Source of the DNA: Virgibacillus natechei
Lineage (GTDB): Bacteria; Bacillota; Bacilli; Bacillales; Amphibacillaceae
DNA: 64,000 bases
Direction: 5' to 3'
NCBI RefSeq assembly: GCF_026013645.1
Contig: NZ_CP110224.1
Span: forward strand, 248,001-312,000
Both the position numbers and the translations under genes were made by a program. A model generated the notes under the pieces. That model saw only the letters and a list, made by a program, of their open reading frames with translations, was not told the DNA's origin and searched no databases. Within the stretch, counting starts at the first letter, position 1. Every line of letters begins with the position of its first letter. Below are positions 11,226-25,991 of this stretch, piece by piece.

Positions 11226-11270
11226 AATTAGCATACCGAATCACATAAGATTTAGTATGCTAATTTTTAT
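11226..11270 (+). terminator. Second hairpin terminator at the left edge of the array
   Basis: AATTAGCATAC pairs with GTATGCTAATT, followed by TTT. It marks the last host-like signal before the repeat-gene array. The rest of 11118-11470 carries no gene that I can see. Confidence 0.7.
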
Positions 11271-11471
11271 TGATATATCAGTTTTTTAAAGAACAATGGG
11301 CCAATTTTAACGTTTGAATTAACAGTGAAATTAGTATATCGACAATTATGTTAAAATAAATCTAAAGATTGTAATACAAGGGCCTTAAATTGAAGGTTTT
11401 GGGTTTCAAACTTTATAACTATCGGCTAGATTGTGGAAGATGGCTAATTGAACAAAAAGGAGGCGATAAAG

Positions 11472-11645
11472 TTGAGAGCGACAACATACTTATTATTTAC
11501 AATTCTAATAATGCACTTAATCACGCTTACAAACATAGTTGTTTTTGACGGGAATTGGAATGGTATAGTAATGACTGTCAATACAGTTTTACTTATTCTA
11601 GCATTTGGCTTAGTCCAAAACGTAAAAAAGACAATAAATGATTAA
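11472..11645 (+). CDS. Small membrane protein, array gene
   Basis: 57 residues with two hydrophobic helices (TYLLFTILIMHLITLTNIVV and VMTVNTVLLILAFGLVQ). TTG 11472 follows AAGGAGG by 8 bp; the in-frame TTG at 11448 precedes that binding site and is unlikely. Function unknown. It is the first gene of the array. Confidence 0.55.
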   Translation: MRATTYLLFTILIMHLITLTNIVVFDGNWNGIVMTVNTVLLILAFGLVQNVKKTIND

Positions 11646-11670
11646 TTCCTAAGCATCGTTCAACCCTCAG

Positions 11671-11706
11671 TTATCGGGTGCTTTAGCCGAATAACACATT
11701 GTTGAA
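11671..11706 (+). repeat. Array repeat, half copy
   Basis: TTATCGGGTGCTTTAGCCGA then ATAACACATTGTTGAA: the left-half core followed directly by a terminal ATTGTTGAA; the GGGCCA part is missing. Confidence 0.6.
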
Positions 11707-11751
11707 GGCTTAACAGGAAAAATGCTAGACAGAGGAGTGTTATAAATAGAA

Positions 11752-12021
11752 GTGTTTTTCCAAGACAAACAAGAACAAGAGATAAGTACAAAACCAATGA
11801 AAATAATCAGGCTATCAATTGCAATATTAATGGTGATATTATTTGTCTTTAGCATTATCGATGGTTTTGATCTTACCTTAATAAAGTGGGTTATCATATT
11901 AGCAGGAGTCATTTCCTTATTTGATGGTATCGAAAAATATTATCAAAAAAAATCGAGTAAAGTAATTCTTTTTGAGTTTGGATTTGCTCTTTTTTGGTTT
12001 ACATTAGTATTTAGTGTGTAG
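11752..12021 (+). CDS. Small membrane protein, array gene
   Basis: 89 residues, three hydrophobic segments (LSIAILMVILFVFSIID, LIKWVIILAGVISLFDGI, FGFALFWFTLVFSV), charged N-terminus. Starts at GTG 11752 about 14 bp after AGAGGAG; an ATG at 11797 is the alternative. No recognised family. Confidence 0.55.
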   Translation: MFFQDKQEQEISTKPMKIIRLSIAILMVILFVFSIIDGFDLTLIKWVIILAGVISLFDGIEKYYQKKSSKVILFEFGFALFWFTLVFSV

Positions 12022-12080
12022 AGAACGAAGCGGAAAAATCTTGAACATACGGTTCCACTATACCAGCTAATATTAGAAAT

Positions 12081-12123
12081 TTGTTCAAAAATTGGGCACT
12101 TAACGAACAATCATATTCCGGAA
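12081..12123 (+). repeat. Array repeat, variant half copy inside an ORF start
   Basis: Begins TTGTTCAAAAATTGGGCACT and ends with GAACAATCATATTCCGGAA, the same variant left half as the copy at 21510. It overlaps the apparent 5' end of the acetyltransferase frame, which suggests the frame there is only accidentally open. Confidence 0.6.
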
Positions 12124-12941
12124 TATGGCTATTTGCGGAACAAACTATACTAAATAGAAGGCGTCTGCTTTTAGAAGGGGAAGGGAATATTTATGGAGAA
12201 AAATACACTATAGTTACATTAAAAGAACGTCCAGATTTAGAAGGTGACTTAAATAATTTGCATAGTATAGGGTGGACAAAATATATGAGAGAGGACCCTA
12301 TAGCAGTAAAGTATTGGGATAAATTACTCTCTTGGTTTCCTGAATTTCAATATATTCTTTTGGATGAGAAATTAAATCCTGTGGCTTGTGGAAATTCAGT
12401 TCCTTTTGATTGGGATGGTAATGAAGGTAGCTTGCCAACAGGATGGGATGGGGTTTTTGAAAAAGGAATAGTAGATTATGAAAATAACATACAGCCAAAT
12501 TCATTGTCAGCATTAGCTATTATCATTCATCCAGCATTCAGGGGTAAGGGTCTGAGTAAGAGAATGGTGAAGGAAATGAAAGGTTTAGCCATTAAAAGTA
12601 ATTTTAATAATATGGTAGCCCCTGTTCGTCCTTCGTTAAAATCCAAATATCCTTTGATTCCAATGGAAGAATACATCGGTTGGATGAGAGATGACGGAAC
12701 TCATTTTGATCCTTGGATTAGAACGCATTTTAAAATTGGTGCTTCCATTATAAAAGTGGCAGAAACATCTATGGTAATTCCAGCTACAGTTAAGGATTGG
12801 GAAAAGTGGATTAATATGAAATTACCTTCGTCGGGAAGCTATATAATAAATGAGGGTTTAGTACCTTTAGAATTAGATAAGGACGCCAACAAGGGTGTTT
12901 ACATCGAACCTAATGTATGGATGAAGCATCCATTGGTCTAA
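12081..12941 (+). CDS. GNAT-family acetyltransferase, array gene (start uncertain)
   Basis: A frame of 286 codons with a GNAT acetyl-CoA motif, HPAFRGKGLSKRMVKEMKGL (about residues 152-171). The first 15 codons overlap an array repeat, so the real start is further in. The best ribosome binding site (AGGGGAAGGG, just before 12190) precedes no ATG in this frame, only ATT and a nearby CTG; the gene may use a rare start or have lost its own 5' end when joined to the repeat. Substrate unknown. Confidence 0.6.
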   Translation: MFKNWALNEQSYSGIWLFAEQTILNRRRLLLEGEGNIYGEKYTIVTLKERPDLEGDLNNLHSIGWTKYMREDPIAVKYWDKLLSWFPEFQYILLDEKLNPVACGNSVPFDWDGNEGSLPTGWDGVFEKGIVDYENNIQPNSLSALAIIIHPAFRGKGLSKRMVKEMKGLAIKSNFNNMVAPVRPSLKSKYPLIPMEEYIGWMRDDGTHFDPWIRTHFKIGASIIKVAETSMVIPATVKDWEKWINMKLPSSGSYIINEGLVPLELDKDANKGVYIEPNVWMKHPLV

Positions 12942-12954
12942 TTGAAAATGTTTC

Positions 12955-12980
12955 GCAATCGGGCCATATTGTAGAGTAAT
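12955..12980 (+). repeat. Array repeat, right half only
   Basis: GCAATCGGGCCATATTGTAG followed by AGTAAT matches the right half of the full repeat. It lies between the acetyltransferase and nucleotidyltransferase genes. Confidence 0.6.
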
Positions 12981-13026
12981 GTGTGTGAAGTTTTAGCTGT
13001 ATATTGAATAGGGGAGTATGTAGTTG

Positions 13027-13812
13027 ATGAGCAATATGACTAATGAAGAAATACCAAGGGAAGCATTTGACGCATTAAGAATTGCGAAGAATGTACTCGG
13101 GAGCAAGTTAGTTGGTATGTCTCTTTATGGTTCGGCAGTAAGTGGTGGGTTACGCATAAATAGTGATGTCGATGTCCTTGCTGTCGTAAATCAGCAATTA
13201 TCTGAAGCTACTCGAAGAAAACTAACAGAACGCTTAATGCCGATATCAGGAAAAATAGGGGATGAAAAAGGAATGCGGTATCTTGAATTCATCGTTATTA
13301 ATAAAGAAGATAGCGTACCTTGGCAATATCCACCGAGGAATGAATTGATATATGGGGAATGGCTTAGATCTGAGTTTGAGAATGGTCAAATTCCGAAACC
13401 AATATTTGATCCTGATTTAGCTATAGTTTTGGCACAAGCACGAGAACATAGCGTTTCACTATTTGGACCTGATTTGTCAACGATACTTGACCCCATTCCG
13501 GTAACAGATATTCAAAAAGCAATAAAGGAGTCTTTGCCAGAGTTAATTGATGATCTTAAGGGTGACGAACGTAATGTGCTATTAACTCTAGCTCGCATGT
13601 GGCAAACAATGGCTGAAAATGCAATTTCTCCAAAGGATGTGGCTGCACAATGGGCAATCCCTAAGTTACCGAAGCAGCAGGCGAAAGTGCTCGATATCGC
13701 TAAAAAAGCTTATCTTGGTGAGTATGATGATGATTGGGACGGAATGGAAGCCGAAGTGATGTCGCTGGTCAATCATATGAGGGGAAAAATAGAGGCTTAT
13801 TTTGATATATGA
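13027..13812 (+). CDS. AadA-like aminoglycoside nucleotidyltransferase, array gene
   Basis: 261 residues resembling the ANT(3'')/ANT(9) family that adenylylates streptomycin and/or spectinomycin. The nucleotidyltransferase signature is complete: LYGSAVSGGLRINSDVDVL (G-S ... D-V-D metal ligands). Family blocks follow: VPWQYPPRNELIYGEWLR, DLAIVLAQAREHSVSLFGP and GDERNVLLTLARMWQTM ... SPKDVAAQWA. Length fits AadA (about 260). Start ATG 13027 follows GGGGAG; TTG 13024 and ATG 13036 are alternatives. It sits in a cassette array, as aadA does in integrons. Whether it confers resistance cannot be read from sequence. Confidence 0.88.
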   Translation: MSNMTNEEIPREAFDALRIAKNVLGSKLVGMSLYGSAVSGGLRINSDVDVLAVVNQQLSEATRRKLTERLMPISGKIGDEKGMRYLEFIVINKEDSVPWQYPPRNELIYGEWLRSEFENGQIPKPIFDPDLAIVLAQAREHSVSLFGPDLSTILDPIPVTDIQKAIKESLPELIDDLKGDERNVLLTLARMWQTMAENAISPKDVAAQWAIPKLPKQQAKVLDIAKKAYLGEYDDDWDGMEAEVMSLVNHMRGKIEAYFDI

Positions 13813-13836
13813 GGTAGTTATTGGAGAACTATACTC

Positions 13837-13899
13837 TTCCTCAATCGGGCCGGATAACTGAATAAATAAGTGCCGCAATAGAGCCAGATTGTTGAGGAA
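13837..13899 (+). repeat. Array repeat, full copy
   Basis: Left flank TTCCTCAAT, core CGGGCCGGATAACTGAATAA, right core CGCAATAGAGCCAG, right flank ATTGTTGAGGAA. The flanks TTCCTCAA and TTGAGGAA are inverted repeats, giving a closed stem. Confidence 0.8.
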
Positions 13900-13903
13900 A
13901 GGA

Positions 13904-13953
13904 GGGGTGTTTTATGCATTAGGTGCATTGGTAGTTGGGATTGCCATGTCACT
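13904..13953 (+). pseudogene. Remnant of a membrane-protein cassette
   Basis: The ribosome binding site and about 40 bp (from CATTAGGTGCATTGGTAGTT to TCACTATT) match the cassette gene at 20518-20679, including the sequence upstream of its start; the middle of the gene is deleted. The remnant ends where the next fragment begins, near 13953. Confidence 0.75.
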
Positions 13954-14129
13954 ATTGCGAACTAGGTATCGCAATTGGACAAGGAAAAAGGATTTTTCTT
14001 TATTCACCAAATGAAGAGGTGAATAATTTTGAAACAACAAGTACGTTTTATCATCTAGCAGAGGTTGAAAAATGCTTTGGAACGCTTGATGAGTTATTGG
14101 AACAAGTTACTATAGTAAAGAAATCTTAA
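13954..14129 (+). pseudogene. C-terminal fragment of a nucleoside 2-deoxyribosyltransferase-like protein
   Basis: The frame reads CELGIAIGQGKRIFLYSPN followed by NNFETTSTFYHLAEVEKC and a C-terminal LDELLEQV, the second half of small nucleoside 2-deoxyribosyltransferase-like proteins of Bacilli. The N-terminal half, with the nucleotide loop, is absent, and the frame is fused upstream to the membrane-protein remnant. It is probably non-functional. Confidence 0.65.
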
Positions 14130-14194
14130 TTTCTTTTCTTTTGATCTCGTTACACTTGAAAAAGTGACAAAAAGTTGGTATTGGAGGAATTCAG

Positions 14195-14758
14195 ATGTCT
14201 GGTACTATTATTTTAATCGGACCAATTTGTTCTGGTAAAAGTACAGTGGCTGAGGTCCTTTCAAGTAAAACTGGGATTCCTCAGCGACCAATGGATGATC
14301 GACGATTTGATTATTATAAAGAAATAGGTTTTAGTAAAGAAAGGCAAAATGAAATATGTGAAAATTATGGTTATATGTCTATGTATGAGTATTGGAAACC
14401 GTTCGAAGCACACGCAGTTAAAAGGGCGCTAGAGGATTATCCGAATTGTATTCACGACTTCGGTGCGGGACACTCTGTTTATGAAGATGAAGTCTTGTTG
14501 AAAGAAGTCAAAAGCATCCTCTATAACTACGAAAATGTATTTTTATTGCTGCCAAGTCAAAATGAAAAAGAATCCATTAATGTTTTAAATGAAAGATTAA
14601 AAGATGTGACCACTAACAACGATGTATATAAACTAAATGAACACTTTGTTAATCACAAGTCCAATAAGCTACTAGCTAAATACACTATTTATACTAATGG
14701 CTACTCTCCAGAAGAAATTGCTGATGAAATAACTGAAATAACTACTAACAATTCGTAG
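14195..14758 (+). CDS. P-loop kinase, shikimate/nucleoside kinase-like, array gene
   Basis: 187 residues with an N-terminal Walker A, ILIGPICSGKST (residues 7-18), a DDRRFDYYKEIGFS substrate-side region and a lid-like segment near residue 130 (NVLNERLKD). The fold class is that of small-molecule kinases such as shikimate kinase, but substrate residues are not recognisable. ATG 14195 follows GGAGGAATTC. GC and codon use look like the rest of the array. Confidence 0.65.
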   Translation: MSGTIILIGPICSGKSTVAEVLSSKTGIPQRPMDDRRFDYYKEIGFSKERQNEICENYGYMSMYEYWKPFEAHAVKRALEDYPNCIHDFGAGHSVYEDEVLLKEVKSILYNYENVFLLLPSQNEKESINVLNERLKDVTTNNDVYKLNEHFVNHKSNKLLAKYTIYTNGYSPEEIADEITEITTNNS

Positions 14759-14770
14759 CATTGGATTCCT

Positions 14771-14832
14771 ATGGCGCTTTTCCCTAATAATAAATAGCGC
14801 CAATACCGCATGTAAGTCCATTTAATGGAATA
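14771..14832 (+). repeat. Array repeat, divergent copy
   Basis: TGGCGCTTTTCCCTAATAAT, then AATAGCGCCAATACC and TCCATTTAATGGAATAA. It has the half-unit pattern GGCGC ... AATAA and a late CCATTTAATGGAATAA, as in the copies at 19771 and 21932. Confidence 0.5.
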
Positions 14833-14927
14833 ACTCCTTGTAAAAATAACAGATATTTGAAATAATTATTATTAAGCTAAAGAGACTGAATTATTGAATA
14901 AGTGTATTATGATTTTGGAGGGAAGAA

Positions 14928-15059
14928 ATGTTGCTAACACTCGTATTATTGGGAATTGCAGTAGCCCTATTTATTATTGCATATAATATCAAGACGATTG
15001 GCGAAAGATTAATTAAAATTCTCGAAAAAAACTATTCAAACGAGAATGACGAAAACTAA
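14928..15059 (+). CDS. 43-residue membrane protein, cassette copy 1
   Basis: MLLTLVLLGIAVALFIIAYN followed by a charged tail ending NENDEN. One hydrophobic helix. ATG follows TTTGGAGGGAAG. The gene and about 70 bp downstream are near-identical to 19567-19698 and its flank, so the whole cassette has been duplicated. Function unknown. Confidence 0.65.
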   Translation: MLLTLVLLGIAVALFIIAYNIKTIGERLIKILEKNYSNENDEN

Positions 15060-15130
15060 CTCGATAACGGTTAAAATCAAGACAGATAGTGTATTTAGGT
15101 ACCCATTTCACCTGTTTTTGGTCTGTTCAG

Positions 15131-15199
15131 GAATTGGGGGCTTTAGCTGAATAACATATTCATTTATCGGGCCAGATAATGGAACAATTAACAGAATAA
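15131..15199 (+). repeat. Array repeat, full divergent copy
   Basis: GAATTGGGGGCTTTAGCTGA then ATAACATATTCATTTATCGG and GCCAGATAATGGAACAATTA; two half units in tandem. It follows the duplicated 43-residue gene, like the copy at 19771, but the cores differ. Confidence 0.6.
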
Positions 15200-15246
15200 A
15201 ATGGTTAAGTATTCTTGTGAAAATTGTATGGGAAGGAGGGGAAATT

Positions 15247-15816
15247 GTGAAAAGGTTAGTGATTATAACAGTTGGTAAGACCCATAGTGGAAAAAGTACT
15301 TTTGCAAAGGATTTAGAAAATGAGTTAGATAATTCTTTTGTTATGGACCAAGATAACAATGCTGAATTTATAAATACATATTACAAAAAGTTGCAACCCA
15401 AATCTGGACCTAATACACTTAAACATTCTATCTCAAAGTTAATTGTTGATTATGCTAAAGAACACACTGATTTGCATATTATTGCTAGTAGTGCAAATCG
15501 AACTAAAAAAGGGAGAAAGTATTTACTGGAAGAAATCTATCCTAAAGATGAGTTTGTCCGTATCATAGTTCATTTTGATATTCCAGATAAAGTTCTGCAT
15601 TGGCGAGTTACTAATAGTAAACGTAGTACAGATATATTTAGAGGTGCTTATTCTAATTTTGAGGAAGTGTTATTAAGGCAACAAGCTGAATCTCAATTAG
15701 AAGATGTTGTGGATCCAGTGGAAGGGGAATCGGACAGTTTATTCGTAATTAAAGATAACTTGGAGGTTGATTCTGTAATAAAAGAAATTGTTCATATTTC
15801 CAAAGGCTATAATTGA
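15247..15816 (+). CDS. P-loop ATPase/kinase, array gene
   Basis: 189 residues with Walker A VGKTHSGKSTFAKDL (residues 9-23), an MDQDNNAEFIN acidic segment, and an arginine-rich lid region HWRVTNSKRSTDIFR. It looks like a small zeta/adenylate-kinase-type P-loop kinase; the substrate is unknown. GTG 15247 follows AAGGAGGGG at 6 bp; an in-frame ATG at 15217 precedes the binding site. Confidence 0.65.
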   Translation: MKRLVIITVGKTHSGKSTFAKDLENELDNSFVMDQDNNAEFINTYYKKLQPKSGPNTLKHSISKLIVDYAKEHTDLHIIASSANRTKKGRKYLLEEIYPKDEFVRIIVHFDIPDKVLHWRVTNSKRSTDIFRGAYSNFEEVLLRQQAESQLEDVVDPVEGESDSLFVIKDNLEVDSVIKEIVHISKGYN

Positions 15817-15865
15817 TTACTTCCTGTTTTACGTCTAGCTATACCAGTAATATTAGAAAGCATTC

Positions 15866-15926
15866 CATTAACGGGCGCAGTTGTTGAAGAAGCACTGTGC
15901 CATAATCAGGCCATTATCTGGAATAA
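15866..15926 (+). repeat. Array repeat, divergent full copy
   Basis: CCATTAACGGGCGCAGTTGT ... GTGCCATAATCAGGCCATTATCTGGAATAA. Left GGGCGC and right GGCCA-GGAATAA units are both present. Confidence 0.6.
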
Positions 15927-15986
15927 GCGTTCATGAATTTTAAGAAAGATGCCAAAGACAAGTCAAAAAAGAAGGGAGTTTATATA

Positions 15987-16070
15987 ATGAATCCTGGTAT
16001 TGTGGCTGCATTACTTTTAATCTTTATAGGTGTTATGGGTATGAGTTCCAAAAAGGAAAAAGTAAAATAA
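15987..16070 (+). CDS. 27-residue membrane peptide, array gene
   Basis: MNPGIVAALLLIFIGVMGMS then SKKEKVK: one hydrophobic helix and a basic tail, preceded by GAAGGGAG. A 28-residue gene of the same design is at 21394. Possibly a small membrane peptide or a toxin-like peptide; nothing decides between these. Confidence 0.45.
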   Translation: MNPGIVAALLLIFIGVMGMSSKKEKVK

Positions 16071-16100
16071 ACGGGCGCTATTCTCTAATAAATAATTTTG
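16069..16100 (+). repeat. Array repeat, half copy
   Basis: AAACGGGCGCTATTCTCTAA followed by TAAATAATTTTG. It overlaps the stop codon of the 27-residue gene. Confidence 0.55.
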
Positions 16101-16230
16101 CCAGTATCGTATATAAGATGGAAGAAGAGAAAATCAAAAGTAACCATACCAAGGTAATTTATAGTTAAATTGAATTGTTACTGGTACTTAATATAATATG
16201 AATAGAAATCATTATAAAAGGAGAAATTTT

Positions 16231-16599
16231 ATGGTTAATAACGAAAGAAAAGTTGGAGAGGTTGACAAGTTTATTTCGAATTTGCCGAAAGGTATTCAAG
16301 ACATTACAGTTGCTTTAAGGGAAATTATTTTTGAATCTTCGCCTGAACTTACAGAAGAATTCAAATGGTCTATGCCCAATTATTCATATAATGGTTTAGT
16401 TTGTTATCTGCAAACTTCCAAAAAACACGTTAATCTTGGTTTTCATAAAGGAAATGAACTTCAAGAAAAAGATATAAATAAATTATTGCAGGGTACAGGA
16501 AAAACAATGAGACATATAAGAATAAAAAAGATGGACGAAATTCATCCGGAAGTCTTCACCTCGCTCATTAAAGAAGCAATGGCATTAAATGAGGGATAA
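16231..16599 (+). CDS. DUF1801-domain protein, array gene
   Basis: 122 residues with the DUF1801 (YdhG-like) pattern: an N-terminal helix pair (VDKFISNLPKGIQDITVALR), EEFKWSMPNYSYNGLVCYLQ, NLGFHKGNELQ, and the late GTGKTMRHIRIKKMDEI. The family adopts a YdhG/frataxin-like fold and is of unknown function. ATG 16231 follows AAAAGGAG; the in-frame ATG at 16198 precedes that site. Confidence 0.75.
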   Translation: MVNNERKVGEVDKFISNLPKGIQDITVALREIIFESSPELTEEFKWSMPNYSYNGLVCYLQTSKKHVNLGFHKGNELQEKDINKLLQGTGKTMRHIRIKKMDEIHPEVFTSLIKEAMALNEG

Positions 16600-16697
16600 C
16601 GCAATAAGAATTAAATAATTCAAATGCTCTTTTATTTTGATGACTATGATTTCGATGGTTCCGAGGATATTATAAAGTGGGAGGATAATGGATTATC

Positions 16698-17123
16698 ATG
16701 ACTAAAATTAATACAGCATTAATAGATAATATTAAATTTCAATTTAGTATTTCTAGACAACTTCTCGAATACCATCTTTCATCATTAAGTCAGGATGAAT
16801 ATATGTGGCGTTCTCCTAATAGTGGACTATATATTCATGAAGTAGATGGAAATTGGTATGCTGACTTACCTGAATCCGAAGCATATGATATTGGTACACC
16901 AAGTATTGCTTGGACATTGTGGCATATAACATTCTGGTGGGAAACGGTATTTAATCACTCTTTTGGTGAAGGTACTCTAACCAAAGAGGATATAAATGTT
17001 AATAAAAATGTAGAATCAGTCAAGTCAACTATCAACTCTCTGATAGAAAGATGGGAAAAGACATATATAGCCCGATTATGGCACATATTTATTCGGTTAT
17101 CGCGCTCGTTTGTTGTAGTTTAA
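16698..17123 (+). pseudogene. DinB-family gene, 5' part, cut by an inversion
   Basis: The frame gives about 122 residues of a DinB-like metal-binding four-helix protein, with WTLWHITFWWETVFNHSFGE carrying a histidine of the metal site. From about 17064 the frame runs into an array repeat in reverse orientation and the last 18 residues (from IARLWHIF on) are repeat-encoded. The missing C-terminus lies just downstream on the opposite strand, so the gene was broken by a local inversion. Confidence 0.75.
17066..17118 (-). repeat. Array repeat, full-length core in inverted orientation
   Basis: On the minus strand it reads GAGCGCGATAACCGAATAAA then TATGTGCCATAATCGGGCTA. It is the only copy in reverse orientation and lies inside the inverted segment that splits the DinB gene. 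Confidence 0.8.
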
Positions 17124-17147
17124 TAGCGTATTATTAATCGCACTTTT

Positions 17148-17264: not shown

Positions 17265-17292
17265 TTACTGATGGATTTCGAGGGGTGATAAA

Positions 17293-20019: not shown

Positions 20020-20023
20020 TTGT

Positions 20024-20082: not shown

Positions 20083-20096
20083 AGGGAGGACACCTT

Positions 20097-20270
20097 ATGA
20101 GATTTATTATTATGTTTATCCTTATGATTGCGGGAGGGGTAGTCGGGGCATATGTAGATGATCAACTGTTGGGCCTCATTCTTATAGGGTTATGGTTATT
20201 TGCCGCCTTAGCTCTCTCTTATTTTTTTAAAAAAAGAAATGAAATATCTTCCCTCAATCGGGCACTTTAG
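20097..20270 (+). CDS. Small membrane protein, array gene
   Basis: 57 residues, two helices (FIIMFILMIAGGVVGAYV, LLGLILIGLWLFAALALSYF) then KKRNE. The last residues (SSLNRAL) and the stop are read from the next repeat, so the original stop codon was probably lost or the repeat supplies it. ATG 20097 follows GGGAGGA. Confidence 0.6.
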   Translation: MRFIIMFILMIAGGVVGAYVDDQLLGLILIGLWLFAALALSYFFKKRNEISSLNRAL

Positions 20271-20275
20271 TAAAG
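20249..20275 (+). repeat. Array repeat, half copy supplying a stop codon
   Basis: TTCCCTCAATCGGGCACTTT then AGTAAAG. It contains the TAG that ends the preceding gene. Confidence 0.6.
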
Positions 20276-20290
20276 AAAGGAGGCGTTGAT

Positions 20291-20389
20291 ATGGAAATTA
20301 TAAATGACCACAAAAACGATAAATACAGTGATATGTATACGTTATTTGTGATTCTTTCCTTAATTACTTTCAAAAAATTAAGAAAATAG
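20291..20389 (+). CDS. 32-residue peptide, shortened cassette copy
   Basis: MEIINDHKNDKYSDMYTLFV then ILSLITFKKLRK. Same gene as 20737-20868, but one base is missing near the end and a TAG results, cutting 11 residues. ATG follows AAGGAGGCG. Confidence 0.55.
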   Translation: MEIINDHKNDKYSDMYTLFVILSLITFKKLRK

Positions 20390-20443
20390 AGCGAAAGAAA
20401 AGGTATTTATATAATAAGCTAAACTCTTTGGATTGACTGTCTC

Positions 20444-20502
20444 CTCAACAATAGGGCGCGATAACCGAATAAATATGTGCGCAATAGGGCCAGATTGTTG
20501 AG
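20444..20502 (+). repeat. Array repeat, full copy with perfect terminal stem
   Basis: Left flank CTCAACAAT (20444-20452), core AGGGCGCGATAACCGAATAA, then ATATGTGCGCAATAGGGCCA, right flank ATTGTTGAG (20494-20502). The flanks are a perfect 9-bp inverted repeat. Confidence 0.85.
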
Positions 20503-20517
20503 AAAAGGAGGGGGGGT

Positions 20518-20679
20518 TTGAATTGGGTGCTTCCCATCGGTTTAACTATTGGAACTTTTATAGGGGTGTACTTGCCAACTCAATCTCTTGCACAAGCCTT
20601 ATCTGGGGCATTAGGTGCATTGGTAGTTGGGATTGCCATCTCACTATTAATACAAACTAAAAGAAATCAGCGTAATTAA
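20518..20679 (+). CDS. 53-residue membrane protein, array gene
   Basis: Starts at TTG after AGGAGGGGGGG. Sequence begins MNWVLPIGLTIGTFIGVYLP, then a second helix ALGALVVGIAISLLI and a basic end TKRNQRN. A deleted remnant of the same gene is at 13904-13953. Confidence 0.65.
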   Translation: MNWVLPIGLTIGTFIGVYLPTQSLAQALSGALGALVVGIAISLLIQTKRNQRN

Positions 20680-20704
20680 TCAATCGGACGCTTTCCTTGA
20701 ATAA
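20680..20704 (+). repeat. Array repeat, half copy
   Basis: TCAATCGGACGCTTTCCTTG followed by AATAA; it overlaps the last base after the preceding stop codon. Confidence 0.6.
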
Positions 20705-20736
20705 AATTAGTTTTCCCGAAAAGGAGTTGACTCTGT

Positions 20737-20868
20737 ATGGATATTATAAATGACCACAAAAACGATAAATACAGTGAGATGTATACGTTATTAGTGATTC
20801 TTTCCTTAATTACTTTTAAAAAGGTTCAGAAAATAGAACGAAAGAAAAAGGTATTATATAATAGCTAG
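20737..20868 (+). CDS. 43-residue peptide, longer cassette copy
   Basis: MDIINDHKNDKYSEMYTLLV then ILSLITFKKVQKIERKKKVL. Hydrophilic N-terminus, one hydrophobic helix, basic tail. ATG follows AAAAGGAGTTGA. Paralogue of 20291-20389. Confidence 0.6.
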   Translation: MDIINDHKNDKYSEMYTLLVILSLITFKKVQKIERKKKVLYNS

Positions 20869-20962
20869 TTAACGGAATAACTTATTGCAAAAATGAAGCT
20901 GACTTGAAATAATTGGCGCAATATTTTGGACTTAATCACATAATTTTGAGGTGTTGTTTTAT

Positions 20963-21274
20963 ATGAGTGAAATCGTTTGGAGTGATGTTACATTCCAATT
21001 TATTACTATTGTAATTTTAATACTAATAATCGTATTAATTGTGTCAGCTTTTCGCTTAATGACTAAACGATCTAAACAAATTGATAAGAAGTCAATTATA
21101 AATATAATCATTGATATAGCACTTATATTGGTACTTTGGTTTGTTCTCGAACTTATAGGAGTACACACATCGTATGTAGTTCCTAAAATAATAGAATGGG
21201 CGACAAAATTTATTCTACCTTGGATAGTATTATATTGGCTGATAAGACTTATTAAAAGTCTTGAGAAAAAATGA
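20963..21274 (+). CDS. Membrane protein, array gene
   Basis: 103 residues with four hydrophobic segments and a basic loop (RLMTKRSKQIDKKS). The first half resembles the 19855 gene (FQFITIVILILIIVLIVSAF, KRSKQ). ATG 20963 follows GAGGTG; GTG 20951 overlaps that site. Function unknown. Confidence 0.6.
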   Translation: MSEIVWSDVTFQFITIVILILIIVLIVSAFRLMTKRSKQIDKKSIINIIIDIALILVLWFVLELIGVHTSYVVPKIIEWATKFILPWIVLYWLIRLIKSLEKK

Positions 21275-21284
21275 ATCATATTGC

Positions 21285-21340
21285 TTCAGGCACGATAACC
21301 GAATAAATATGTGTCGCAATAGGGCCATTTTGTCGAGTAA
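21285..21340 (+). repeat. Array repeat, full copy
   Basis: TTCAGGCACGATAACCGAAT, AAATATGTGTCGCAATAGGG, CCATTTTGTCGAGTAA. The left GGGCGC is reduced to GGCAC. Confidence 0.75.
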
Positions 21341-21393
21341 CAGCTTTATATTTGCAATAATATTACGTAAAACAAAATTAGGGAGGAGGAGCA

Positions 21394-21480
21394 ATGATGA
21401 ATATAGGTGTCTGGGTTGCAATAGGTATTGCGATAGCTGCGGGTATAGGGTTGTTTGGGAAACCTAAAAAGAAGAAATAA
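21394..21480 (+). CDS. 28-residue membrane peptide, array gene
   Basis: MMNIGVWVAIGIAIAAGIGL then FGKPKKKK, with a perfect GGGAGGAGG upstream. Same design as the 15987 peptide. Confidence 0.5.
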   Translation: MMNIGVWVAIGIAIAAGIGLFGKPKKKK

Positions 21481-21509
21481 ATTATCTTTGAGGGAGTATC
21501 ATTTCTAAA

Positions 21510-21565
21510 TCTATCGGGCGCTTTTATCGAACAATCATATTCCGGAATGGGGCCAGATTGTTCAA
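21510..21565 (+). repeat. Array repeat, full copy, variant spacer
   Basis: TCTATCGGGCGCTTTTATCG, AACAATCATATTCCGGAATG, GGGCCAGATTGTTC. Internal GAACAATC and GATTGTTC are perfect inverted repeats. The left half matches the copy at 12081. Confidence 0.75.
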
Positions 21566-21588
21566 AACGGATGGAGGAATAACGTGGG

Positions 21589-21924
21589 ATGCAAAGAACC
21601 TTTAAAGCATTGACAATTATTGTTTTATTAATAATTTCCGGGTGTTCTAATTCAATAAACGAAAATGATGAAAAACCTGCTGAAACCGAAACAATCAATT
21701 CTCATTTCACAGGAACAATCAAAGAAATTAACGGAGATAGAGCAATTGTTTCTGCTAAAGTGGTTGAAGATAATTCAGAAGGTGACGTGTTTGTTGACCT
21801 TTCTGTAAACGAGAATGAAACATTTCAGGTGTATGACAAAGTAAAAGTAGGATTCGACGGCGTTGTTATGGAATCGACACCTGCACAAATAAATACACTT
21901 TCTGTTGAAATTGTTGATGATTAA
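21589..21924 (+). CDS. Small lipoprotein, array gene
   Basis: 111 residues with a lipoprotein signal peptide (FKALTIIVLLIISGCSNS; lipobox ISGC, cysteine near residue 19) and a beta-rich C-terminal domain (TGTIKEINGDRAIVSAKVVE) of an OB-like, DUF3221-type layout. It would be anchored outside the membrane. ATG 21589 follows ATGGAGGAAT. Confidence 0.65.
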   Translation: MQRTFKALTIIVLLIISGCSNSINENDEKPAETETINSHFTGTIKEINGDRAIVSAKVVEDNSEGDVFVDLSVNENETFQVYDKVKVGFDGVVMESTPAQINTLSVEIVDD

Positions 21925-21931
21925 TATAAGT

Positions 21932-22002
21932 AATTGTTCAATTATCGGGCGCACTAATGGAATAAAAGTACGCTCTTTCTGAATCGGTCCATTTAACGGA
22001 AT
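21932..22002 (+). repeat. Array repeat, full divergent copy
   Basis: TTGTTCAATTATCGGGCGCA, CTAATGGAATAAAAGTACGC, TCTTTCTGAATCGGTCCATT, TAACGGAATT. Two GGAAT-ended half units. Confidence 0.7.
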
Positions 22003-22034
22003 TTTACTTTCTAAAAGGGAGGAGGACTCGATTA

Positions 22035-22346
22035 ATGCTTATTATTGGTGCATTGGTACTACCATTCTTTATATATGCTCTTGTAATGTATTTTAAATTT
22101 TCAAGAAGTGATAAATCTAAGGATGAAAAAGAACAAGTCTTAGCTTATTCATCTAAACATGCACTTGGTGTATTTCCAATCGGATGGCTTATTCTCCATT
22201 TATATCACAATTTCATAGCGAGCATACCGTATGATACATACAGGGATGCGATGTGGGTATTAGTATTACTGTTATTCACCGTTCAAGGATTTGCAATCAA
22301 TTATTATAAAAAAAGAATGCAGCAATCGGATGCCAGTCAGGAATAA
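22035..22346 (+). CDS. Membrane protein, array gene
   Basis: 103 residues, three hydrophobic segments (residues 2-20, about 48-62, 72-90) separated by a charged loop (RSDKSKDEKEQVLAYSSKH). ATG follows GGGAGGAGG. Between this gene and the next a right-half repeat piece (GAGCCAGATTGTTTAATAG, about 22365) is present. Confidence 0.55.
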   Translation: MLIIGALVLPFFIYALVMYFKFSRSDKSKDEKEQVLAYSSKHALGVFPIGWLILHLYHNFIASIPYDTYRDAMWVLVLLLFTVQGFAINYYKKRMQQSDASQE

Positions 22347-22486
22347 AGAAAAGTTGCTCATATTTCATTTAAAGAGCCAGATTGTTTAATAGAGAAGGAA
22401 GTGATTCAATGGTTTTTCCCTCAAAAAGCATTGGGAATATCCGTTACTTCCAATCGAAAATAGCATAACAGGAGACGAGGACAAAA

Positions 22487-22795
22487 ATGGGAATTGAAAC
22501 GGGAATCGGTATTATTATCGGTGTATTTTTAATTTGGGTTGGCTATATTGTTCGAAAAAAAGGGATATATTCCTTACTACCTGGCTTCTTCTGGATAACG
22601 TGGGAACCGGTTAATAGCGAAAAACTGGGCAACAGGATTGGTACTCTTTTAATCATTTTGGGTGTTCTTGCCATTTTAACAGCTATATTTACCATATGGT
22701 TTGGAGCTGTGGTTGGGAAAATCTCTGCAATCCTAGCCCTTATTGATGGGATTATGATTTTTATTGTAATCGCATTGGATCAAATGGGGCGTTGA
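22487..22795 (+). CDS. Membrane protein, array gene
   Basis: 102 residues; helices at residues 3-20, about 53-75 and 80-98. ATG follows AGGAGACGAGG. Not recognised. The 270 bp after it hold a repeat and no other gene. Confidence 0.55.
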   Translation: MGIETGIGIIIGVFLIWVGYIVRKKGIYSLLPGFFWITWEPVNSEKLGNRIGTLLIILGVLAILTAIFTIWFGAVVGKISAILALIDGIMIFIVIALDQMGR

Positions 22796-22951
22796 AAGAA
22801 GTGTTTCTATTTTAAGAGTTTTAATTTCAATGAAAATGAGGAACTCCATCCTGAAGGAAGTGGAGATAGAACAAAGGAAATAGAAAAAATTTAAAAATCA
22901 AAACGAACGACTGTATTATAGAAGTTTTAGAAGGTATAAGAGATAAATAAA

Positions 22952-23015
22952 AACTATACTATAATCGGGCGCGATAACCGAATAAATATTTGACGCAATA
23001 GGGCCATATAGTTGA
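22952..23015 (+). repeat. Array repeat, full copy with a different terminal stem
   Basis: Left flank ACTATA, core ATCGGGCGCGATAACCGAAT, AAATATTTGACGCAATAGGG, right flank TATAGT. Flanks are perfectly complementary but differ from the CAACAAT/ATTGTTG pair of other copies. Confidence 0.8.
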
Positions 23016-23067
23016 ACAAATGGAAGTTTAATATTTTTAAATAATATAACAAAAAGGAGAATATTCA

Positions 23068-23262
23068 ATGTCAGAGAACTACCCCTATTATTACAGGACT
23101 TGGTTTGTCGTATTTATGTTAATTTTATTTTTTCCAGCAGGGCTCATCCTTATGTGGAAAGGTAATAAGTTTGGAGAAACGAGTCGGATTATTATATCTG
23201 CCTTTGGACTATCACTGTTATATCCTTTTATACTAAGGATTAAGAAACAAATATCGTCTTAA
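23068..23262 (+). CDS. Small membrane protein, array gene
   Basis: 64 residues (MSENYPYYYRTWFVVFMLIL start) with two helices separated by WKGNKFGETS, resembling short Bacillus membrane proteins with a pre-helix aromatic stretch. ATG follows AAAAAGGAGAA. The stop codon overlaps the following repeat. Confidence 0.6.
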   Translation: MSENYPYYYRTWFVVFMLILFFPAGLILMWKGNKFGETSRIIISAFGLSLLYPFILRIKKQISS

Positions 23263-23318
23263 ACAATCGGGCGCGATAACTGAATAAATATGTGCAGCAA
23301 TAGGACCACATTGTTTAA
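23259..23318 (+). repeat. Array repeat, full copy with perfect terminal stem
   Basis: Left flank TTAAACAAT (23259-23267), core CGGGCGCGATAACTGAATAA, ATATGTGCAGCAATAGGACC, right flank ATTGTTTAA (23310-23318). A perfect 9-bp inverted repeat with a sequence different from the copies at 20444 and 22952. Confidence 0.85.
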
Positions 23319-23342
23319 TAAGAATATGTAAAGGGGGACAAA

Positions 23343-23609
23343 ATGGATGCTTTAATGTTAGAAGGATGGACACCGATTTTGCTCATTGGAATTGTTGTTG
23401 CTTTTATCATCTTTTTTATATCTCGTAAGATTTCTAGAAAAGCTCTATTTTTAATTTCCATTGTATTGAGTTTAATTTGTGTCGGAATCGTAATTTACAG
23501 TAGAGAAGCTGTTGGCGGTTGGGAAGGTATTGGATTGGCATTTGTTACGTTCAGTGGTTTCCTTGGAATATGGGTAGGTACTATAAGTGGAATGATTATT
23601 AAAAAATAA
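23343..23609 (+). CDS. Membrane protein, array gene
   Basis: 88 residues, three helices (ILLIGIVVAFIIFFISRKI, LISIVLSLICVGIVIYS, GLAFVTFSGFLGIWVGTISG). ATG 23343 follows AAGGGGGAC. Function unknown. Confidence 0.6.
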   Translation: MDALMLEGWTPILLIGIVVAFIIFFISRKISRKALFLISIVLSLICVGIVIYSREAVGGWEGIGLAFVTFSGFLGIWVGTISGMIIKK

Positions 23610-23622
23610 ATATGTAATGTAA

Positions 23623-23695
23623 TTTGTTCAATTAACGGGCGCATTCGCGGAATACACTTTGTGCCTATTATTGCTTCATCGAGCCAGGTTGTAGG
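23623..23695 (+). repeat. Array repeat, full divergent copy
   Basis: TTGTTCAATTAACGGGCGCA, TTCGCGGAATACACTTTGTG, CCTATTATTGCTTCATCGAG, CCAGGTTGTAGGG. The GAGCCAG right core is kept. Confidence 0.65.
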
Positions 23696-23725
23696 GAAGA
23701 TTTTTTCGTATTAAGGAGGGGTAAT

Positions 23726-24010
23726 TTGCGAAAATGTAACAACTGTAAATCACAATTTAGCTGGAGTGAAATCTTTAAATCGTTTTGGCCAGTATATGAA
23801 CCAATTGAATGTGCCAACTGTGGTACGAAACATAAGATAACCACTTTTGGTAAAAGTACAGTTGGATCCATAAGTCTTTTGCCAATATTTATATTTGGGT
23901 ATGCTCTTTATCCTTTAGGTAACATCTTTGTAATGGTTGGTATAGGAGCTCTTATAGGAATTATTGGTTTTTTACTCACACCATATATTGTTCAATACAA
24001 AGAAATATAG
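23726..24010 (+). CDS. Cysteine-rich two-helix protein (TIGR04104-like), array gene
   Basis: 94 residues with a zinc-ribbon-like pair of CxxC motifs, CNNC (residues 4-7) and CANC (about 34-37), then two membrane helices. The 20-odd residue gap between the CxxC pairs matches the TIGR04104 family, small Bacilli proteins of unknown role. TTG 23726 follows AAGGAGGGG. Confidence 0.75.
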   Translation: MRKCNNCKSQFSWSEIFKSFWPVYEPIECANCGTKHKITTFGKSTVGSISLLPIFIFGYALYPLGNIFVMVGIGALIGIIGFLLTPYIVQYKEI

Positions 24011-24029
24011 TGAGGAATTATGCTTAGAC

Positions 24030-24052
24030 AAACGGGCGTCTATCTTGAATAA
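24030..24052 (+). repeat. Array repeat, half copy
   Basis: AAACGGGCGTCTATCTTGAA then TAA. A further repeated tract, TTTTGAAATAATTGGC, lies at about 24098 and is shared with 20905. Confidence 0.55.
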
Positions 24053-24175
24053 GGAAAGTGTCTTAATTTTTGCAATAATATTTGAGTTGGATTAGTTGTT
24101 TTGAAATAATTGGCACTAAGCTTTAGTAATAGGTTAGTTGAACAAGAAGTAAAACTTTTAAAGGGCGGACTATTT

Positions 24176-24352
24176 TTGAGACAATATTTGATTTTATTTA
24201 TTTTATCTTTCATTTCTCAAATCATATACTTTACTTTCTTAATAGAAGACGAAAGTATGACGATTTTGAGTATGTTAGGTTTCTCAGTGGTTTTTACGTT
24301 TTTTTGGGCGCTATTTGACAAGGTATTCCCACCCAAGAATAAAAGAAAATAA
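24176..24352 (+). CDS. Small membrane protein, array gene
   Basis: 58 residues, two helices (LRQYLILFILSFISQIIYFT, ILSMLGFSVVFTFFWALF), basic C-terminus PPKNKRK. TTG 24176 follows AAAGGGCGG; the frame is open back to 24110 within repeat-like sequence. Confidence 0.5.
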   Translation: MRQYLILFILSFISQIIYFTFLIEDESMTILSMLGFSVVFTFFWALFDKVFPPKNKRK

Positions 24353-24448
24353 GAAAGGTTAGATCAGATATACAAATTTATTGATTTAACGAGCAGGACT
24401 GTGCAACAAATTTTTACCTTTAGTTAAATACGTTACCCACAATGCCTA

Positions 24449-24503
24449 TCTGGATTGGCGCGATAACCGAATAAATATGTGCCGTAATCGTGCCAAATTG
24501 TTG
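24449..24503 (+). repeat. Array repeat, full copy
   Basis: ATCTGGATTGGCGCGATAAC, CGAATAAATATGTGCCGTAA, TCGTGCCAAATTGTT. Confidence 0.75.
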
Positions 24504-24518
24504 TAAAAGAGGTGCATA

Positions 24519-24680
24519 ATGGGATTTAAAAAAAGAGTAATACTAGCAATTGTTTTCTTTGCAGTGGCATTAACTTTGATTTTTATGTTTTTTAACCCTG
24601 GTACAATGCAGTCATTGTTACTAGTAATTACTGCATTTTGCACAATTTTAATTATGCAATACAAAAGACCAGAAAAGTAG
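24519..24680 (+). CDS. 53-residue membrane protein, array gene
   Basis: Two helices (VILAIVFFAVALTLIFMFF and SLLLVITAFCTILIMQY) with a basic start MGFKKR and end KRPEK. ATG follows AAAAGAGGTGC. Function unknown. Confidence 0.6.
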   Translation: MGFKKRVILAIVFFAVALTLIFMFFNPGTMQSLLLVITAFCTILIMQYKRPEK

Positions 24681-24696
24681 GTGCTGAACCTATATC

Positions 24697-24722
24697 ATTA
24701 ACGGGCACTTATGCGGAATAAG
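24697..24722 (+). repeat. Array repeat, half copy
   Basis: TCATTAACGGGCACTTATGC then GGAATA. Last repeat copy before the right edge of the array. Confidence 0.55.
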
Positions 24723-24796
24723 ATGGAATTATTTTGTACTTATTCATTGTTGTGCTGCAATTCTCATTTATAATGGATATAAGGGAGGAATGCAAA

Positions 24797-25042
24797 ATGA
24801 AATGGGAAGAAGCTCGGGAACTATTTCCTGATCAGTTCCTTTTGGTTTCCATTTTGGATTATCATTATGAAGGCGAGAAGAAGATTGTTGATGAGGTAGC
24901 TCCAATACGACGAATCAAAGATGAAGGTGCAAATACAGAGTTTTTCAAGGCAAAAGAGGGAACGATGGTTTATCATACAGGAAATAGTGATTTTGTAATC
25001 CATATACGTAGAGGTCCTCTAATGAAAGTGAGAAGGATCTAA
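24797..25042 (+). CDS. Small soluble protein, array gene
   Basis: 81 residues (MKWEEARELFPDQFLLVSIL start), mixed alpha/beta and charged, without membrane helix. Layout resembles small Bacillus cassette proteins described only as hypothetical. ATG 24797 follows AAGGGAGGA. The 235 bp after it show no gene. Confidence 0.6.
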   Translation: MKWEEARELFPDQFLLVSILDYHYEGEKKIVDEVAPIRRIKDEGANTEFFKAKEGTMVYHTGNSDFVIHIRRGPLMKVRRI

Positions 25043-25277
25043 TGGATCTATTTATGTAACTCGACTTATGGTATACGCTGTTTGTAATCTTCAACGAACT
25101 GGTTTGTTAACAAAAGAAACAGTTGTCTTCTAGCAACTCGTATTACCTATTATGAGAGATCTTTCCAACAATATGTTAAAAACAAAGGAGCTACCCAAAT
25201 ATCGCCAATTGTGGATGTTTGAGTTAGCCTCTTTTTAATTTTAGTATAAAAATCAAATGCATCACTGGGGTGGAAAA

Positions 25278-25925
25278 GTGAAAGTAAATAAAAATATAAT
25301 ATTGGTTATTTGCATTGTAATTTTCTTTATTGTAGCTACATATTTTATAGAACCTACTGAAGGTAATGATTCACCAGGCGAATCAGATAATGTAACTAAC
25401 ATAGAAAATGAAAATGAAAAACTAAAGCAGGATATAGAACATTTAGAGGAATCTCTATTTGAAGCAGAAAAATATATATATGATTCCGAATTAGCAAGTG
25501 ATTATCTACCATTTGCAGAAAAAGAAATCATTTATAAGGAAATTGAAGAGAGAAAGTACGTTATCCTTTACAAGAGTGAGGTAGGAGGTCAGATAGAAAA
25601 TCACCTACTTGTAGTATCGGACAAACCCAATTTTAAAGCTTTCCTAACCGTTCCTTCATTAAACCCAACGAATGGAATTACGATGGATTATATTGGCGAT
25701 GCTGAGTATAACTACTTTGGTGGAATTATTACGGATAAAGAGGTTAAAAAGGTACAAGTATTACAAAATGAAAAAGTGCATGAAGCTAACATTTTTAAAG
25801 TAGATGAAGATATCTATGGGTGGTACAGTATTTTTGAAAGAGACGATAAGGATAGACGTGATAAGTTGAGAATAGAAGCTCTTGATGAGAATGACGTAAT
25901 ATTATGGCAAGAATCCATTAGATAG
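25278..25925 (+). CDS. Membrane-anchored protein with coiled coil, array edge
   Basis: 215 residues: an N-terminal signal anchor (IILVICIVIFFIVATYFI), a glutamate-rich coiled coil (about residues 35-60), and a beta-rich extracellular domain (YVILYKSEVGGQIENHLLVV). No family recognised. GTG 25278 follows GGGGTGG. It is the last gene before the convergent terminator at 25992. Confidence 0.6.
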   Translation: MKVNKNIILVICIVIFFIVATYFIEPTEGNDSPGESDNVTNIENENEKLKQDIEHLEESLFEAEKYIYDSELASDYLPFAEKEIIYKEIEERKYVILYKSEVGGQIENHLLVVSDKPNFKAFLTVPSLNPTNGITMDYIGDAEYNYFGGIITDKEVKKVQVLQNEKVHEANIFKVDEDIYGWYSIFERDDKDRRDKLRIEALDENDVILWQESIR

Positions 25926-25991
25926 AGATATAGAGAGATAATAATTTACTAACCCGCGCGCGCAATTACTTAGGAATCAAATGAAAATGAT

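Follow-up and report, generated by a model that had tools for sequence, protein, structure and literature searches.

A probable integron-like cassette system of Bacilli, with short recombination sites and a linked Xer-type recombinase, as seen from a gene array in Virgibacillus natechei

What brings together some 15 kb of small genes, most of them followed by a copy of one repeat, in the chromosome of Virgibacillus natechei? We addressed this question in a stretch of 64 kb (the window; positions 248,001 to 312,000 of genome G000, which is 3.87 Mb in one contig). From the sequence of the window, an earlier note had proposed a one-directional array of unrelated genes with a structured repeat, which it attributed to an unnamed gene-capture system of Bacillaceae whose acting enzyme lies elsewhere. 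Our analysis makes it quite probable that the array belongs to an integron-like mobile cassette system of Bacilli, with its own Xer-type tyrosine recombinase (here called TR) and directly repeated double-stranded sites.

From the plus-strand open reading frames (ORFs) we chose 33 small genes, spanning 11,472 to 25,925, and the 12 minus-strand ORFs of at least 60 amino acids in the array stretch each overlap one of these genes. The array is flanked by a gene block ending near 11.1 kb and by genes from 26.1 kb on, including one for an Amidase_3 protein at 26,717. A position-weight model of the repeat, built on the arrays of V. natechei and related genomes, detected 41 sites in the window, every one within 11,674 to 24,701, and 39 of them were on the plus strand. 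In 27 of the 33 genes a site with a score of at least 10 lay ahead of the next gene (one of these 27 sites being on the minus strand, at 17,100), and the median distance from the stop codon to the site core was 28 bp. No site with such a score was found after the genes at 11752, 14195, 16231, 20737, 24797, and 25278, and the gene at 14195 had a weak site only (score, 8.4). This confirms the proposed series of small genes pointing one way, most of them followed by a repeat. Ten array products scanned with Pfam were unrelated to one another: matches above the Pfam cut-off were to AadA_C, DUF1801, DinB_2, and DUF3221, weaker ones were to AAA domains, the TscT model, and DUF2306, and three products had no match. 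Many of the remaining array genes look, from their translations, short and membrane-protein-like.

The orientation of the sites relative to the genes was not confined to this window. When we considered ORFs of at least 40 amino acids with a ribosome-binding-like motif, a codirectional ORF ended just 5' of the core in 19 of the 28 site groups in the window, in 220 of 337 in other arrays of the same type, and in 67 of 139 in a second array type; the mirror image was found 3, 31 (of 337), and 21 times, respectively. Besides, an earlier palindromic site model, applied to both strands with a score above 14, gave 856 matches in real loci versus 4 in first-order Markov shuffles of 636 kb.

According to a consensus drawn from hundreds of copies, the site is approximately 32 bp in length and consists of two inverted boxes, about TTnTTCCnnAA and TTnnYGGAATAA, that flank an asymmetric core, WCGGGC, continuing as GC (type 1) or CA (type 2). 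Sites often occur as doublets, i.e., two sites in a row, usually with the core GGGCGC and then GGGCCA. Among neighboring same-strand sites less than 90 bp apart in all array loci, the spacing was 33 to 35 bp in 42 of 105 and 43 to 46 bp in 39 of 105, and these two classes differ by about one helical turn. The full and half copies of the repeat distinguished in the earlier note thus stand as doublets and single sites, respectively; the word "structured" had to be given up, as follows.

Pairing between the arms was equal to that of permuted pairs (z, -0.4 to 0.1) for single sites (n = 338), outer and inner arms of doublets (n = 87 and 85, respectively), and cassettes (n = 335), and in a second lineage of arrays z was 0.6, 1.3, 2.1, and 0.9 on 120, 21, 20, and 94 pairs. 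Folding was near random, with mean z values of -0.47 (top strand) and -0.29 (bottom strand) for 86 doublets and -0.08 for 150 of 340 single sites, although at least five outer arm pairs were present in the best fold of 30 of the 86 doublets, which counts against a verdict of no folding. The repeat had no match in Rfam up to an E value of 0.05, its consensus has no T-run, and the two cores within a doublet are not complementary. We rejected a structured RNA or an attC-like hairpin on the basis of near-random folding, absence of arm covariation, and absence of an Rfam match. The repeat has instead the appearance of a recombinase site of the double-stranded type, and its complementary tails are accounted for by the match of both arms to a single binding consensus.

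We further found by BLAST that the array is missing in two genomes of the same genus, G001 and G002, which have 182 and 81 bp, respectively, where the window has approximately 15 kb. Homology to locus L037 breaks off at 11,093 and that to locus L038 at 10,988; in both cases it is taken up again at 26,147, and the intervening DNA measures 81 bp in L037 and 182 bp in L038. The region with no counterpart at the same place in both genomes is thus 11094 to 26146 (plus strand; limits approximate). We also observed a 25-nucleotide inverted repeat (88%) near both array ends, at 11,185 to 11,209 and 26,062 to 26,086.

Nine stretches of the window have further copies, either in other arrays or elsewhere in the window, and two of the nine are duplications inside it. 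The stretch at 15,168 to 15,878 recurs at 1.117 Mb of the V. natechei genome with 97.6% identity, and those at 23,702 to 24,038 and 18,116 to 18,402, which are 5.3 kb apart in the window, are neighbors in the reversed order near 1.129 Mb. The stretches at 23,001 to 23,288 and 24,760 to 25,053 recur in Lentibacillus sp. CBA3610, and those at 13,959 to 14,132 and 11,456 to 11,685 in G002. As judged from these alignments, cassettes are common to arrays and species one by one, in differing orders. Many alignment ends fall within the core, for example both ends of 23,001 to 23,288 against locus L047 and the break at the 3' end of the match between L063 and L064, and in the pair L011/L047 a type 2 core switches to a type 1 core at the break. 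Overall, 97 of 749 distinct alignment ends (13.0%) were no more than 5 bp from a core, versus 1.4% of random positions, which points to exchange at the site core as an enrichment. Neither a random spread of sites nor a fixed gene order, either of which the earlier note had regarded as contradicting its proposal, was seen: within the window the sites are confined to the array, and cassettes occur in other orders. An unnamed gene-capture system is therefore well supported by singly shared cassettes, core-enriched breaks, and the array's absence from both same-genus genomes.

A search for tyrosine recombinases near the arrays gave the first sight of TR, as a broken XerC-like gene inside two arrays. 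TR is a Xer-type tyrosine recombinase of about 280 amino acids, with an uninterrupted frame in many matches, and has a core-binding and a catalytic domain in which the catalytic residues R-K-H-R-H-Y are kept. In a tree of 46 rows, the 33 TR rows formed one clade (support, 100/99) separate from XerC and XerD of the same genomes, the labels XerC and XerD being our own and the long branches outside the TR clade being unsure. Three TRs scored 212.1, 220.2, and 214.1 bits with the XerA model NF040815, the cut-off of which (220) was reached by one; TR was below the cut-offs of TIGR02224 and TIGR02225. TR accordingly does not appear, from its sequence, to qualify as an orthologue of XerC or XerD. With the integron integrase model TIGR02249, the three TRs reached 91.2, 100.8, and 93.4 bits (cut-off, 265), and TR matched IntI4 with an E value of 1.3e-9 versus 5.3e-28 for 4a8e. 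In the classification given in the consulted part of PMC8138268, integron integrases make up a subgroup marked by an insertion within the catalytic domain, which is not fully conserved there; the TR alignment had no insertion relative to XerC. In a phage collection, all 389 matching records were below 60% to TR, and the six listed were at 30.5 to 35.7%.

The V. natechei genome had no TR match at an E value of 1e-50 or below. Its six tyrosine recombinase family matches are XerC and XerD (our labels), three other integrases, and one fragment. Several other candidates for the acting enzyme were considered and rejected: the XerC-like integrase at 37,651 to 38,565 of the window, which is 27 to 29% identical to TR and lies near a tRNA; a 319-amino-acid integrase of V. 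natechei, with a close relative only in V. halotolerans among 14 genomes searched; the phage-type integrases of loci L017 and L040; runs of three or more recombinases in genomes G061 and G062, which were not seen in V. natechei; and serine recombinases, the loci of which are among the controls described below.

TR was found to be tied to the sites. We took 30 TR loci from 43 listed matches and, as controls, 49 distinct loci of other recombinases (60 minus 11 overlapping). Sites scoring at least 11 occurred within about 1.5 kb in 28 of the 30 TR loci (26 of 28 once the two loci of first discovery were set aside) versus 4 of the 49 controls, and sites scoring at least 20 in 17 of 30 versus 0 of 49. 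In 24 further TR loci outside training, sites scoring at least 12, 14, and 20 were present in 20, 20, and 16 loci, respectively, versus 7, 5, and 0 of the 49 controls in the same two-model scan and 1, 0, and 0 of the 24 TR loci after shuffling. In addition, genomes with TR were richer in sites than those without (median, 18 versus 6; 32 versus 127 genomes; P = 2.5e-7). These results agree with the claim that the acting enzyme lies elsewhere: other genomes have TR linked to sites of this kind, and none was detected in V. natechei.

With the longest piece of the broken gene as the query, TR matches at an E value of 1e-50 or below were present in 32 of 159 genomes and 16 of 46 genera of the family. 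A sample of the class Bacilli gave TR in 32 of 398 genomes and 23 of 146 genera at 1e-55 or below, the weakest of these matches (38 to 41% identity) possibly being other recombinases. The attribution to Bacillaceae was therefore too narrow: the system is present there and also reaches other families of the class Bacilli and plasmids. A looser site pattern gave 0 to 141 matches per genome in the 159 family genomes, and the twelve genomes of genus g63, to which Lentibacillus salicampi belongs as judged from a shared contig, had 32 to 141. A stricter pattern of 26 positions matched four stretches of the genome collection and occurs in L. salicampi, Lentibacillus sp. CBA3610, and Virgibacillus halotolerans; it had no match in viral contigs, and its strictness makes it ill suited to these sites. 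Plasmids searched with 4.3 kb of DNA from the window yielded no match. In V. natechei itself, sites lie in five places, namely, at about 21 to 33 kb, in the window, at 970 to 973 kb, at 1.116 to 1.129 Mb, and at 3.641 Mb (very few).

Plasmid stretches around TR carried 24 called sites in an Arthrobacter citreus record, 9 in Sporosarcina, 6 in Cytobacillus, and 5 of mixed strands in Peribacillus, all four stretches having belonged to the training set of the second site model. On the A. citreus plasmid, a like-oriented site lies no more than 110 bp past the stop in 12 of 17 complete codirectional genes. This plasmid (CP053689.1; locus L190), filed under an actinomycete name (Actinomycetota), has a recombinase approximately 61% identical to the TR of Bacilli and the same kind of array, and the strain may be misnamed. 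In the TR group at 82 to 94%, nearly all sites are oriented with TR, and a PemK/MazF-like gene comes after TR in loci L061 and L093; in the group at approximately 60 to 66%, most sites are oriented against TR. A site is found 883 to 888 bp past the TR start in 7 of 15 loci (L180, L181, L183, L184, L187, L188, and L190) and 83 to 134 bp before TR in L180, L184, L187, L188, and L190, where it could conceivably serve as a primary, attI-like site. TR is located between sites and is therefore placed as a cassette would be.

The cores in V. natechei (80 called sites) were GGGCGC in 22, GGGCCA in 19, and GGGTGC in 7, and those of Lentibacillus sp. CBA3610 (158 sites) were GGGCGC in 91 and GGGCCA in 25. 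Around close TRs (72 sites) there were 33 GGGCGC and 12 GGGCCA cores; around the 60 to 66% TRs (124 sites), 26 TGGTGC, 20 GGGTGC, 19 GGGCAG, and 11 GGGCGC; and on plasmids (42 sites), 8 TGATGC, 6 TGGCAG, and 5 GGGTGC. By these counts per TR group there are two recurrent core types, the letters of which differ according to the enzyme, a contrast that may be sharpened by the fitting of the site models to these same groups.

Furthermore, the core serves as a target of other elements. A group II intron (Rfam RF02004/RF00029) encodes a reverse transcriptase of 624 amino acids with an HNH motif near its end by eye (no Pfam match for the motif); among the seven copies or remnants listed, which come from three genomes, six have their 5' end at most one or two bases away from GGGCGC. 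An IS110-type element (PF01548) has its right end, ATACGA(T/A), directly before (C)GGGC in all five copies that keep that end, while a sixth copy, a fragment in L009, is missing it. Because two unrelated kinds of element settled there, the core seems to have been a frequent and long-lived target.

If the cassette reading holds, TR would bind the two inverted boxes of a site and exchange strands inside the core; a cassette would be cut out as a circle between two like-oriented sites, and the circle would be inserted at any other like-oriented site. Arrays would then run one way because the asymmetric core allows direct-repeat products only, and cassettes would be shuffled singly because of excision and reinsertion between like-oriented sites. 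The cassette genes are presumably expressed. Since V. natechei has sites in five places and no TR was found, its arrays have probably been orphaned or are served in trans, comparable to the clusters of attC sites lacking integron integrases (CALINs) of integrons; they might be fossils, or depend on a TR that is repeatedly gained and lost, or on XerCD.

Several observations weigh against the cassette system proposed here. TR could be a common passenger or favored cargo of the arrays and not their driver. Stop codons interrupt 13 of the 43 listed TR matches, and frame shifts disrupt TR in L061 and L093. Although TR and site number go together, 17 of the 127 TR-negative family genomes still have at least 20 sites, V. 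natechei with 47 being among them, and 8 of the 32 TR-positive genomes have fewer than 10; the genome-wide pattern also has a background, with 0 to 4 matches per genome for a reversed control pattern. The arrays themselves supplied the training sequences for the site models, and the second model drew in part on the 15 TR loci that were scanned with it. Only 13% of the alignment ends are at a core and the others lie away from cores, so that the breaks represent an enrichment and not a rule. Finally, a second IS110-type element (L043/L044) is not inserted at the core.

The passenger role of TR would be explained if host XerC/XerD moved the cassettes, as in the dif/pdif modules of Acinetobacter. 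Genes that we labeled XerC and XerD are present in all six genomes checked, also in V. natechei, the arrays of which are without TR, and TR itself is Xer-like. Nevertheless, the 159 genomes of one family, all of which are expected to have XerC/XerD, differ widely in site number (0 to 141); loci of XerC, XerD, and other recombinases are seldom accompanied by sites (4/49); and core letters follow the TR lineage. Besides, pdif modules have an inverted site orientation, whereas the sites here are direct repeats, and the boxes presumably differ from the dif site of Bacillus. We therefore regard transfer by XerC/XerD as unlikely. It is still less attractive, and in our opinion very unlikely, to suppose a true integron or CALIN with diverged attC sites and an IntI located elsewhere. 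Gene-plus-site units in a single direction and arrays without an enzyme would suit it, the consensus of the second site type has RYYYAAC/GTTRRRY-like letters by eye, the description of NF040815 (just reached by one of three TRs) mentions "integron integrase," and the consulted part of the IntegronFinder 2.0 paper (PMC9024848) reports a few CALINs in Firmicutes. Against this, single sites of approximately 32 bp suffice, doublets fold little better than shuffled sequences and show neither covariation of their arms nor complementarity of their two cores, and the three TRs remain far below the integron integrase cut-off (91 to 101 versus 265 bits).

Short, imperfect sequence identity should make RecA-mediated exchange rare, and this bears on the view that the repeats are terminators, repetitive extragenic palindromic (REP)-like sequences, or regulatory elements at gene ends, the mixture of genes being due to ordinary homologous recombination. 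The location just past stop codons would fit such elements, and repeats can serve as RecA substrates; however, the consensus has no T-run, extra folding is slight, Rfam has no match, orientation is strict, one recombinase family is linked to the sites, and the sites share short, imperfect identity only. This explanation is, in our judgment, highly improbable. The system of TR and directly repeated sites thus remains the reading that we favor.

The individual sites of the window are on the plus strand unless stated otherwise. Single sites are located at 11663 to 11694 (first of the array; core GGGTGC; score, 26.3), 12948 to 12979 (GGGCCA; 28.2), 16060 to 16091 (30.9), 18103 to 18134 (25.0), 18426 to 18457 (27.9), 20673 to 20704 (27.1), 23624 to 23655 (29.8), 24021 to 24052 (24.5), and 24690 to 24721 (last of the array; 25.6), with weak ones at 18884 to 18915 (15.6) and 20247 to 20278 (15.5). 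Doublets with stated spacing are those at 13834 to 13899 (34 bp; scores, 32.6 and 23.2), 15123 to 15187 (33 bp; 26.6 and 30.3), 15860 to 15926 (35 bp; 30.9 and 29.3), 19763 to 19837 (43 bp; 26.2 and 26.1), 21934 to 22004 (39 bp; 36.0 and 12.1), and 22315 to 22392 (46 bp; 21.8 and 18.0). Further doublets lie at 17518 to 17583 (35.1 and 20.5), 20020 to 20085 (37.3 and 20.7), 20441 to 20505 (34.7 and 20.7), 21275 to 21340 (10.6 and 28.3), 22954 to 23019 (34.8 and 29.5), and 23256 to 23321 (36.8 and 26.6), together with a weak one at 19435 to 19500 (11.1 and 17.5). The second member of the doublet at 21503 to 21571 (28.7 and 24.5) is a near-palindrome with a higher score on the minus strand, and the first member of that at 24443 to 24508 (9.1 and 20.0) is below the call threshold. 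An inverted site on the minus strand, at 17064 to 17123 (29.3), had one of two members called and was recognized as a doublet by its match to other doublets.

The genes of the array, all on the plus strand, include one for an AadA_C/nucleotidyltransferase domain protein at 13027 to 13812 (PF13427; 114.9 bits), a DUF1801 gene at 16231 to 16599 with no site found after it, and a DinB_2 gene at 16698 to 17123, the 3' end of which overlaps the inverted site at 17,064 to 17,123. A DUF3221 gene (Pfam) is located at 21589 to 21924, a DUF2306-like gene at 17605 to 18069 (29.1 bits, below the Pfam cut-off of 31.6), and a weakly AAA_33-like gene (below the Pfam cut-off) at 15247 to 15816, the stretch of which is 97.6% identical in the 1.117-Mb array of the same genome. 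Some cassette genes have copies within the window: the 43-amino-acid gene at 14928 to 15059 has a near-identical gene at 19567 to 19698 (stretch 92.0% identical), and the 32-amino-acid gene at 20291 to 20389 a near-duplicate at 20737 to 20868. Others have copies elsewhere. The small gene at 18184 to 18405, membrane-protein-like by eye, lies in a stretch with a 91.3% copy in L011, and the zinc-ribbon-like gene (by eye) at 23726 to 24010 has related stretches in L011 (same genome), L040 (G002), and L044 and L051 (Lentibacillus sp. CBA3610). The gene at 23068 to 23262 and the 81-amino-acid gene at 24797 to 25042 (no site found after it) belong to stretches with copies of 92.0 and 87.1%, respectively, in Lentibacillus sp. 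CBA3610, the former with breaks at both site cores.

We also noted features outside the array. At 37,174 to 41,392 of the window, the XerC-like integrase gene (37,651 to 38,565) near a tRNA gene is followed by a weak helix-turn-helix gene and two genes without an NCBIfam match; this looks like an integrated element unrelated to the array. The approximately 3.3 kb at 42,400 to 45,690 have only one ORF of at least 60 amino acids on either strand, an abundance of short words of the GAGAG/CACTC/GAGTG type by eye, and no Rfam match in a scan of the window, and are possibly a non-coding or decayed part of that element. In other genomes, runs of three or more tyrosine recombinase matches, which we take to be recombinase-in-trio-like, lie at G062:C1:2,681,438-2,684,191 and 3,736,333-3,741,170 and at G061:C85:7,702-10,427, the last contig also carrying an array. 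Self-alignments showed tandem repeats of approximately 140 bp in L065 at 8113 to 9500 (G003) and of approximately 52 bp in L050 at 578 to 1064 (G062).

It seems reasonably probable that Bacilli possess a gene-capture platform of their own, independent of integrons: Xer-derived, with short double-stranded sites, two core types, a self-carried cassette, trans service across chromosome and plasmids, and its own parasites. According to the consulted part of PMC9024848, Firmicutes extremely seldom carry integrons, and the reasons are unclear; if true, such a platform would help to explain their near-absence. Its reach extends over TR in one family, the class Bacilli, and plasmids of several genera, and site-rich genomes go beyond the TR-positive ones. 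Hundreds of small, mostly unknown cassette genes are thereby exposed, a second case for testing integron rules is provided, and a simple double-stranded cassette-exchange tool may be on offer. Among the matches listed in the open-access literature, including the consulted parts of PMC9024848, PMC7923331, PMC11187229, PMC8138268, PMC11089894, and PMC12907356, there was no description of the sites or the recombinase.

Compared with known systems, the arrays share with integrons the units of gene plus recombination site in one direction, a large number of small genes whose function is unknown, the presence of a PemK/MazF-like gene next to the recombinase, breaks at the site, arrays without an enzyme, and group II introns and IS110/IS1111-type elements as parasites at the site. 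In contrast, TR is Xer-like and fails the IntI model, the sites are simple palindromes of the double-stranded type without folding or covariation, TR itself lies between sites like a cassette, and the hosts belong to Bacilli, from which there are extremely few reports of integrons (PMC9024848, in part). Judged by its sequences, the system is integron-like in logic and fails two defining integron tests, those of enzyme family and folded site. In integrons, group II introns are known to insert in attC (PMC7923331, in part), as do IS1111-attC elements (PMC11187229, in part); both classes insert in cassette recombination sites here too, although they target the core of a site that is of a different kind. 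With the XerCD-dependent dif/pdif modules of Acinetobacter, the system shares linear arrays of modules bounded by simple tyrosine recombinase sites (PMC12907356, in part), and it differs from them in its direct repeats, another consensus, and a separate, linked recombinase family.

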